Shown piece after piece: positions 21,511 to 24,327 of a stretch of 64,000 bases of DNA. Made by a program: the position numbers and the translations under genes. How positions within the stretch are numbered: the stretch's first letter is position 1; every line of letters starts with the position of its first letter. Source of the stretch: Chryseobacterium sp. MEBOG06 (GTDB lineage: Bacteria; Bacteroidota; Bacteroidia; Flavobacteriales; Weeksellaceae); NCBI RefSeq assembly GCF_021869765.1, contig NZ_CP084580.1, positions 3,844,001 through 3,908,000 on the forward strand. The letters are read 5' to 3'. The notes beneath the pieces were generated by a model. The model was given only the letters and a program-made list of their open reading frames with translations. It made no database searches and was not told the DNA's origin.

Positions 21511-22545
21511 CTAATTTGAGCCGGCAATATCTAAAACGATTCTGCCATCAATCTGTCCTTTTTTCATTTTGTCAAAAACATCATTAATATCTTCTAATTT
21601 CGCAGCAGTCACAGTAGCTTTCACAAGCCCTTCATTAGCAAAATCTAAAGCTTCCTGCATATCTTTTCTGGTTCCTACAATAGATCCTCTTACTGTAATT
21701 CTTTTTAAAACAGTCTCAAAAATAGGAAGTTCAAATGATCCTGGAGGAAGCCCGTTAAGGGCAATGGTTCCTTTTCTTCTCAGCACATCTATTCCCTGCT
21801 TGAAAGCTATTGGAGAGACCGCAGTGATCAATGCACCATGCATTCCGCCTACTTCTTTATGTAAATATTCTCCGGGATCAGTATTTTTAGCATTGACTAC
21901 AAGATCTGCTCCTAATTTTTTGGCGAGATCAAGCTTATCGTCTGATACGTCAATAGCTGCCACGTGCATTCCCATTGCTTTCGCATACTGAACTGCTACG
22001 TGTCCTAATCCTCCGATTCCTGAGATGGCTACCCATTCTCCCGGTTTTGTCTCTGTTTCTTTTAATCCTTTATAAACCGTAACACCGGCACATAAGATAG
22101 GTGCTATTTCCAAAAAGTTAACATCAGATTTTAAATGTCCTACGTATCTGGAATCTGCAATCACATATTCTGCAAAACCTCCGTCTACACTATAACCTCC
22201 ATTTTTCTGAGCCTCGCAAAGGGTTTCCCATCCCGTGATACAGTAATCACAGCATCCACAGGCACTGTACAGCCATGGAACTCCTACCGCATCTCCTTCC
22301 TTTACGAAAGCTTCAGGTCCACAGGCCACTACAATTCCTACTCCTTCATGTCCCGGGATAAGAGGCATTTTAGGTTTTGCAGGCCAGTCACCATCTACCG
22401 CATGTAAGTCAGTATGGCAAACTCCACAGGCAATTACTTTTACCAATACTTCATATCTTCCAGGTGCTCTTACAGGAACTTCTTCTATTTTCAGGGGTTG
22501 GCCGTAGCCTTGAACTACCGCGGCTTTCATTGTTTTTGGAATCAT
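21511..22545 (-). CDS. adhP: Zinc-dependent alcohol dehydrogenase
   Basis: A 344-residue medium-chain dehydrogenase of the AdhP type, reducing aldehydes or oxidising primary alcohols with NAD. Catalytic zinc ligands are in [15 protein letters not shown] and GHEGVG. Four structural-zinc cysteines are in [15 protein letters not shown]. The Rossmann loop is [14 protein letters not shown]. The ATG at 22545 gives the usual [12 protein letters not shown] opening. It lies downstream of the ALDH gene on the same strand, separated by 252 bp that contain a GC-rich structured element. The pair would convert ethanol-type alcohols to acids. Confidence 0.93.
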
Positions 22546-22660
22546 ATTTTATTTTTTGAGTTAGGTTTTTACAGGCAAATCTGTAATGATGTCTGCAAAA
22601 GTTGGTAATCAGATTTACTATTTTCAATTAATAATCAATCCATAAGACTGATATTATTCT

Positions 22661-22787
22661 GCGTGAGGGATAGGAAGGGCGGCGAGGAACGAGCCGGTGC
22701 GCAATGTAATGGAGCACCGAAACGAAGTGCAGCCCTGGATAGCCCGACCGACTTCCCCGGAAAAGCCAGGGCAGTCGGGCACGTCCT
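22661..22787. repeat. GC-rich structured intergenic element (candidate interspersed repeat)
   Basis: About 127 bp, clearly richer in GC than the surrounding AT-rich DNA, lie between ALDH and adhP. A 6-bp hairpin is formed by CGGTGC (22695-22700) and GCACCG (22714-22719). Further on, GCCCTGG (22732-22738), GCCCGAC (22742-22748), CCAGGGC (22766-22772) and GTCGGGC (22774-22780) are complementary in the interleaved order A-B-A'-B'. I see no plausible coding frame. From general knowledge, Chryseobacterium genomes carry GC-rich interspersed elements of similar look; membership is inference. No second copy was noticed in this window. Confidence 0.6.
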
Positions 22788-22797
22788 AAAATTAATA

Positions 22798-24327
22798 TTA
22801 AAAGAATCCTAATTTGTTTTTGTTGTAGGATATCAACATATTTTTAGTCTGACGGTAATGGTCAAGCATCATCTTATGATTTTCCCTTCCTATCCCCGAC
22901 TGCTTATACCCTCCAAAAGGCGCTCCTGCCGGATAAGAGTGATATTGGTTTACCCATACTCTTCCTGCCTCAATCTGGCGCGGAATATTGTACAACTGGT
23001 GTGCATCCCTAGTCCATACTCCGGCTCCAAGGCCATAAATGGTGTCATTCGCAATTTTTACGGCTTCCTCTTCATCTTTAAATGTCGTAAAAGCGAGTAC
23101 CGGACCAAAAATTTCCTCCTGGAAGATTCTCATCTTATTATGTCCTTTGAAAATGGTAGGCTGAATATAGAAACCTTCATCAAGGTCTTCTCCCAGATGA
23201 TTAACTTCTCCGCCAACCAATACTTCTGCTCCTTCATCTTTCCCTAACTGAATGTAAGAAAGTATTTTATCTTTCTGAATCTTTGAAGCCTGCGCTCCCA
23301 TCATCACGGTTTTATCCAATGGATTTCCGACTTTGATTGCTTTTACTCTTTCAATTACTTTTTCAATAAAAGCATCAGCGATATCTTCCTGAACCAGCAA
23401 TCTGGAAGGGCAGGTACAGATTTCTCCCTGATTAAGCGCAAAAAGAACGGCTCCTTCAATAGCTTTGTCTAGAAATTCATCATCGGCATCCATCACTGAG
23501 GTAAAGAAAACATTCGGTGATTTCCCTCCCAATTCCAGTGTTACCGGAATAATATTTTCTGTTGCATACTGCATTACGAGGCGTCCTGTAGCTGTGGAAC
23601 CGGTAAAAGCTGCTTTTGCCACTTTAGGATTGGTCACCAAATGACGTCCCAGTTCTGCCCCAAATCCGTTAACGATATTCACTACTCCTGCCGGTAAGAG
23701 ATCTCCTATTAATTCCATCATCACCATAATGGAAACAGGTGTACTTTCTGCGGGTTTTAAAACGACACAGTTACCTGCTGCCAATGCCGGTGCCAGCTTC
23801 CATACTGCCATCAGGATCGGAAAATTCCAAGGGATGATCTGCGCAATTACTCCAAGAGGTTCGTGTACAATAAGAGAAACGGTATCTTTATCCAGTTCGT
23901 TATGAGAGCCTTCATCTGCACGAATCACGGAAGCAAAGTATCTGAAGTGATCGATAGCCAACGGCATATCTGCTGCAAGGGTTTCTCTCACTGCTTTACC
24001 ATTGTCTATCGTTTCTACTGTAGCAAGATATTCCAGATTTTGTTCTATTCTGTCTGCAATTTTGTTCAGAATAATACTTCTTTCTGTGGATGAGGTATTT
24101 TTCCAGCTTTGAAATGCTTTTTCAGCAGCATCTACAGCGAGTTCCAAATCTTCTTTGGATGAATGGGCTACCTGAGTAAAAGTTTTTCCGTCAACGGGAG
24201 ATATTACATCAAAATACTGCCCTTTAACGGGTGGTGTGAATTTTCCGTCAATATAATTATCATATCTGCTTTTGAACTCGGGGCGTTGCAAAAGGGTTGC
24301 TGGTCTTGGTTCTGTAAGAGTGCTCAT
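22798..24327 (-). CDS. NAD-dependent aldehyde dehydrogenase
   Basis: A 509-residue aldehyde dehydrogenase of the acetaldehyde-oxidising ExaC/AldB group. Key residues are the catalytic Cys in [14 protein letters not shown], the general base Glu in [11 protein letters not shown], the NAD-site Lys in [10 protein letters not shown], and [10 protein letters not shown]. Length is normal for the family. It oxidises aldehydes to acids, downstream of AdhP action. The AraC gene is divergent, 180 bp away. DUF779 and adhP on the same strand complete the cassette. Confidence 0.93.

Follow-up and report, generated by a model that had tools for sequence, protein, structure and literature searches.

A long-armed variant of a dispersed structured repeat at the 3' end of an ALDH gene in Chryseobacterium

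Enterobacterial REP sequences protect a transcript or set the amount that is made from downstream genes. The motif at the foot of the REP palindrome is GT[AG]G (PMC6006769). Flavo-1 (RF01705) is, like the family described here, a dispersed intergenic structured element of Bacteroidota; Weinberg et al. 2010 considered it a probable RNA that is not cis-regulatory (PMC2864571), and Rfam classes it as an sRNA. In the F. psychrophilum transcriptome (PMC9723704), Flavo-1 matches lie equally in sense or antisense and many fall outside transcribed regions. Flavo-1 has been an orphan RNA since 2010 and has no assigned function. Judged from its copies, the element of Chryseobacterium sp. MEBOG06 reported here belongs, as a long-armed variant, to a family of structured intergenic repeats dispersed in Bacteroidota.

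The GC-rich block and its conserved fold

The window, the whole 64,000-nucleotide stretch analysed, holds a 127-bp block at 22661-22787 directly past the stop codon of an ALDH gene and between the ALDH and adhP genes. Its GC content is 0.638 against 0.254 in the left gap and 0.36 in the whole window, as expected from the preliminary description of a GC-rich block. That description had also reported four 7-bp arms in the order A-B-A'-B', a separate hairpin ahead of them and no plausible coding frame, and all three were confirmed in the window copy. The arms lie at 22732-22738/22766-22772 (A/A') and 22742-22748/22774-22780 (B/B'), and 1 of 500 dinucleotide-shuffled versions of the block produced such an interleaved set; the hairpin lies at 22695-22719; and the ORFs crossing the block are short (30-49 aa), none being convincing as a reading frame. 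RNA folding z-scores of the block were -1.86 (+ strand) and -2.99 (- strand). Comparison of copies delimits the unit as 22660-22786.

The two competing hairpins or pseudoknot proposed for the four arms were not supported. Across 51 ALDH-linked copies A/A' and B/B' have 0 compensatory pairs, no pair being changed on both sides, and they pair no better than shuffles; the interleaved arms hold for the window copy and lack conservation, and a conserved A-B-A'-B' switch was rejected. Covariation among aligned copies, the check suggested for that fold, is present but belongs to a different structure. Comparison among the 51 ALDH-linked and 50 other copies gives a three-way junction closed by the stem P0 (GCGTG/CACGC), in which arm P1 (GGG-A-TA/TA-G-CCC) leads to P2 and hairpins H1-H3, and H4 forms the third arm. 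The features of the locus are as follows.

21511-22545, - strand: adhP-like zinc alcohol dehydrogenase gene (PF08240/PF00107), the next gene downstream of ALDH
22660-22786, + strand (the strand with the best-fitting fold, opposite to ALDH and adhP): whole element; R1 129.8 bits in its own genome, R2 33.3 bits
22661-22665, + strand: P0 5' strand GCGTG, pairing with 22780-22784; 99.6% of cells paired in 51 copies
22667-22672, + strand: P1 5' strand GGGATA; 22667-22669 pair with 22743-22745 and 22671-22672 with 22740-22741
22677-22679, + strand: P2 5' strand GGG, pairing with 22733-22735; 98.0% of cells paired
22680-22696, + strand: hairpin H1; 4 of 4 pairs changed on both sides in ALDH-linked copies
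22697-22717, + strand: hairpin H2; 3 of 4 pairs changed on both sides
22722-22728, + strand: mini-hairpin H3, AC-GAA-GT; A-T / G-C exchange between copies
22733-22735, + strand: P2 3' strand CCC, pairing with 22677-22679
22740-22745, + strand: P1 3' strand TAGCCC; four-type Watson-Crick pair 22672/22740 in relatives
22748-22778, + strand: third arm H4, variable in length and sequence; CC/GG foot in 51 of 51
22780-22784, + strand: P0 3' strand CACGT, which is CACGC in most relatives
22798-24327, - strand: ALDH gene (PF00171, E 1.1e-161), its stop adjoining the element's 3' end

In an alignment of 26 distinct copies, 13 of the 25 pairs carry changes on both sides and 96.0% of cells are paired, compared with 89.3% in shuffles and 28-44% when slid. 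Compensatory pairs number 11 of 25 in the 51 ALDH-linked copies (99.1% of cells paired) and 16 of 25 in the 50 other copies (97.2%; 48 distinct rows, five copies also being ALDH-linked), alignments A2 and A3 having been fitted to the model, which favours the model's pairs and G.T on the + strand. The trimmed set leaves out L058, which lacks the 5' half, and L062, whose end departs from the pattern. The P1 pair 22672/22740 is A-T in the window copy and Watson-Crick in 57 of 62 distinct copies from relatives, where all four types occur at this position just inside the letters required by the search pattern. By eye, several hairpins are capped by GAA triloops that have GA/GA or GGA/GGA loops next to them. 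At four loci (L055, L056, L087 and L088) the third arm contains palindromic repeats of other kinds, so this arm tolerates or attracts insertions.

Position behind the ALDH gene

The copy count proposed earlier as a check gave a single copy in the element's own genome (5.29 Mb, one contig), where the window copy alone was matched by BLASTN and by the covariance model, 150 of 366 candidates having been scored in the latter scan. Among 99 genomes (this one and 98 relatives), BLASTN found matches in 55, namely its own, 53 of the other 59 in the genus and the distant G078; a similar copy occurs in Chryseobacterium sp. ZHDP1. ALDH is present in 54 of the 60 genus genomes, the remaining six having no close ALDH, and in 51 of the 54 a full element sits at the 3' end of the gene. 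The ALDH-linked copy of G036 is partial and lacks its 5' half. In G029 and G045 ALDH is present and no element was found there; in these two genomes no join was visible when the spacers, which are highly diverged, were compared with filled sites.

The spacer from the ALDH stop codon to the element measures 9-16 nt in 49 of the 51 copies and 134 and 275 nt in the other two. The preliminary description had suggested a structured RNA in the leader of adhP, and the element does lie 115-241 nt ahead of the adhP start. However, adhP adjoins the element in 32 of the 51 copies, while in the other 19 the next gene found is DUF779, and the distance that is kept is the one to ALDH. On this arrangement the partner of the element is ALDH and not adhP. 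A cis-regulatory leader or riboswitch of adhP, whose place upstream of that gene is not kept, was rejected and is very improbable.

In species pairs with a fourfold-site identity of 0.3-0.5 (n=1080, out of 1225 pairs that are not mutually independent), mean identity is 0.80 in the element and 0.52 in the left flank, the latter being the level of unrelated DNA (shuffled flanks, 0.50). By this comparison, conservation of the element at the window's site far exceeds that of fourfold sites or flanks, and the element is an old repeat under selection here. As there is one copy per genome, gene conversion cannot explain the conservation in the window's genome. Long-arm copies occupy two further fixed places in the genus, beside an MFS gene and beside a deoxyhypusine-synthase-like gene. 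Two sister genera (L299, L300) lack the element, and by eye the corresponding place is occupied by a terminator-like hairpin that has a T run. The element itself has no terminator-like T run, and an intrinsic terminator was ruled out on that account.

The dispersed family and its mobility

The outer part of the family is a three-way junction, GCGTG AGGGAT ... AGCCC GACC ... GGNCACGCCC, and its inner arms vary. A model search of 246 genomes of the order, in which 14 candidates per genome were scored so that copy counts are lower bounds, gave matches in at least 57 genomes and at least 11 of 81 genera. The gapped pattern GCGTGAGGGAT...AGCCCGACC occurs in at least 116 stretches of the genome collection; among the matches listed 80 were titled, and 77 of these are Bacteroidota by title, the others being one from Treponema and one from Aureimonas, each with two full copies, and one from Chloroflexi that lies within a gene and looks like chance. 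CACGC, which the pattern does not require, follows within 120 nt in 137 of 140 pattern matches (controls 6 and 3) and is usually succeeded by CCAAA. The window element belongs to this outer-junction family (GCGTGAGGGAT...AGCCCGACC...CACGCC): its covarying P1 pair stands after GGGAT and before AGCCC, and it was found by the R2 model (33.3 bits, E 2.9e-6) as the sole match at E<=10 in 64 kb. The copies behind R2, 45 out of 62 distinct ones, have other inner-arm types and include none of the window's long-arm kind; viral contigs, units longer than 112 nt and L221 were omitted. In the collection of papers searched by exact letters and by topic, this unit was not found described.

Across the family, orientation relative to genes is not fixed: among 85 copies the four strand arrangements of the neighbours number 27, 22, 18 and 18, and nine further copies lie inside a called ORF. 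In the first 51 loci, mostly from genus and f7 genomes, the neighbours lean to the opposite strand (left 40/51, right 36/51). Eleven stretches of the viral collection carry the family pattern, and one viral contig (IMGVR_UViG_3300028735_000371) has three outer-junction copies in 9 kb. Carriage by phages or plasmids was rejected, there being no phage match and only two plasmid matches, both short and unconvincing. The Bacteroidia MAG SKYG108 (L119, L122, L124, L154, L158, L165, L175 and others) is rich in copies, with several per contig and an inner-arm type of its own (GGAGCATGCC...), and is a good place to seek a mobilising gene.

From its copies the family can be taken as shown to have moved as a defined unit without target duplication. 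Exact matches to the pattern number 34 in G078 (19 forward, 15 reverse) and nine in G107, and 14 of the G078 copies are 0.928 alike inside and 0.50-0.52 alike in their 60-nt flanks, which is the level of shuffled flanks. In 159 copies the mean flank repeat was 0.83 against 0.91 in the control, and none reached 6 bases or more. The earlier suggestion of a mobile, REP-like repeat stands as regards membership of a dispersed structured-repeat family, although the window's own genome has a single copy of this form; it does not extend to a RAYT-type REP, which was ruled out because none of 31 Y1 transposase loci carries a family copy by pattern. The R2 model gave at these Y1 loci a weak match to the inner part only (E 0.016), on a Flavo-1 copy in L246.

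Several Y1 loci were seen to have repeats of other kinds. The one Y1 transposase gene found in the window's genome (PF01797; G000:C1:3932797-3933141, about 1490-1920 of L071) lies outside the window. It contains an in-frame TGA, and the palindromes on either side of it (GGCTTTAGCC/CTAAAGCC) belong to a different repeat. L268 (1180-1890) holds a RAYT-like gene that has NHVH and YTHKNP motifs and resembles Bacteroidetes subclass 2.6; the GCGCGAT...ATCGCGCG palindromes flanking this gene may be its REP. The Rfam family Acido-Lenti-1 adjoins Y1 transposase genes in L249 (1893-1938) and L266 (784-828), and may represent a repeat linked to RAYTs and not an RNA.

The element could also be a mobile DNA repeat that is passive and does nothing for ALDH, its fold aiding its own spread as single-stranded DNA through hairpin recognition by a transposase or host nuclease. 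The G078 copies on both strands, with like interiors and unrelated flanks, the lack of target duplication and the free gene orientation all agree with this, as does the unusual stability of GAA triloops in DNA. Yet the window's genome has one copy, strongly constrained genus-wide at one place; the 31 Y1 transposase loci show no family copy by pattern; and there is no replication-strand bias in the small numbers available (10/18 and 3/4, and 22/38 for Flavo-1, taken from 38 G282 rows, with dnaA as the origin and the opposite point as the terminus). We consider this explanation possible, though doubtful.

Possible roles and comparison with known systems

The strand of the fold bears on each reading. 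In a dereplicated set of 26 long-arm and 62 other copies, fold stability favoured the + strand, opposite to ALDH, in 24 of the 26 and 49 of the 62, and on this strand G.T outnumbered A.C by 29 to 5 (18 of the 29 from one pair) and by 22 to 6; the window copy taken by itself folds slightly better on the minus strand. A better fold opposite to ALDH weighs against a role in the ALDH transcript, and a passive DNA repeat, whose + strand would fold best whatever the genes, is kept as a serious rival because of this test. The same asymmetry, and the filing of the related Flavo-1 as an sRNA, would fit a small RNA gene on the + strand, transcribed against ALDH. Nevertheless, the promoter of such a gene would fall in the left flank, which is unrelated between species; the sole promoter-like match, to an E. 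coli-type consensus, is at chance level; and the F. psychrophilum matches cited above, indifferent to strand and often untranscribed, speak against it too. A small RNA gene here appears improbable.

We give about an even chance to the reading that the long-armed variant is kept at the ALDH 3' end for a job in the operon, likeliest as a 3'-end or intercistronic structure. A repeat copy would have inserted behind the ALDH stop codon in an ancestor and been retained by selection because it was useful to the ALDH operon. Folded at the 3' end or between cistrons of the ALDH transcript, our best guess for its place of action, it would protect that transcript; alternatively, the fold may set the output of the genes downstream of ALDH. 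Its role would then most likely be comparable to that of enterobacterial REP sequences. The + strand fold, the absent T run, the two ALDH genomes without the element and the lack of a family-wide gene orientation weaken this interpretation.

A broader view, which we put forward tentatively, is of a mobile folded superfamily throughout the Bacteroidota (rare in Treponema and Aureimonas), made of the outer junction and exchangeable inner modules that include Flavo-1. Its function would be at the DNA level, a fold of one strand being moved by some enzyme, and the ALDH copy would have been recruited by the host.

At the window element no Rfam family reached its threshold; Flavo-1 (gathering score 42 bits) gave no match there even at E<=10 and none in the window at E<=0.1. 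The inner arm, GGAAGGG...CCCTGGA with three hairpins, is without the GCAGYGGAAA-type internal loop of Flavo-1. In 6 of 18 loci (L116, L128, L134, L140, L145 and L168) outer-junction relatives score above the Flavo-1 threshold at the pattern copy, and in L156 and L160 there is overlap below it; Flavo-1 and the overlapping copies have the internal loop around the inner arm in common. Flavo-1 is matched 12 times in the window's genome at E<1e-3, four times above threshold, and these copies differ by their outer stem, AGCCCCGAT...AGCGGGA. It therefore seems that inner and outer parts can be exchanged as modules, the window copy standing at the far end with the common outer and a different inner part. 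Unlike Flavo-1 it has a multi-hairpin inner arm, and its third arm and closing stem lie beyond the Rfam match, which suggests that the conserved unit is larger than Flavo-1, with these two parts added. The suggested exchange of parts between families and the strewing of copies irrespective of gene orientation point to a mobile structured element and not to an sRNA gene. Among the members, the copy linked to ALDH is both strongly constrained and single-copy, so that one deletion could test its function.

REP and REPIN sequences mobilised with a RAYT are likewise short, dispersed, structured and intergenic, without target duplication. Whereas a REP is a palindrome of 20-40 nt, the family unit is a three-way junction of about 85-165 nt; the window unit reads GCGTGAGGG, has 127 bp and several arms, and is not a short palindrome with a GT[AG]G foot. 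No RAYT stands beside any tested copy, and the palindromes that flank RAYTs in these genomes are different ones. MITEs share with the family a small non-coding unit, sharp ends and many near-identical copies in some genomes. Here, in contrast, the ends are complementary over merely 5 bp, no parent transposon was found, and the terminal inverted repeats and target-site duplication of a MITE are both lacking. The feature is thus real and conserved; its long-armed form is new, and it is of a kind, the dispersed structured repeat, that is already known.
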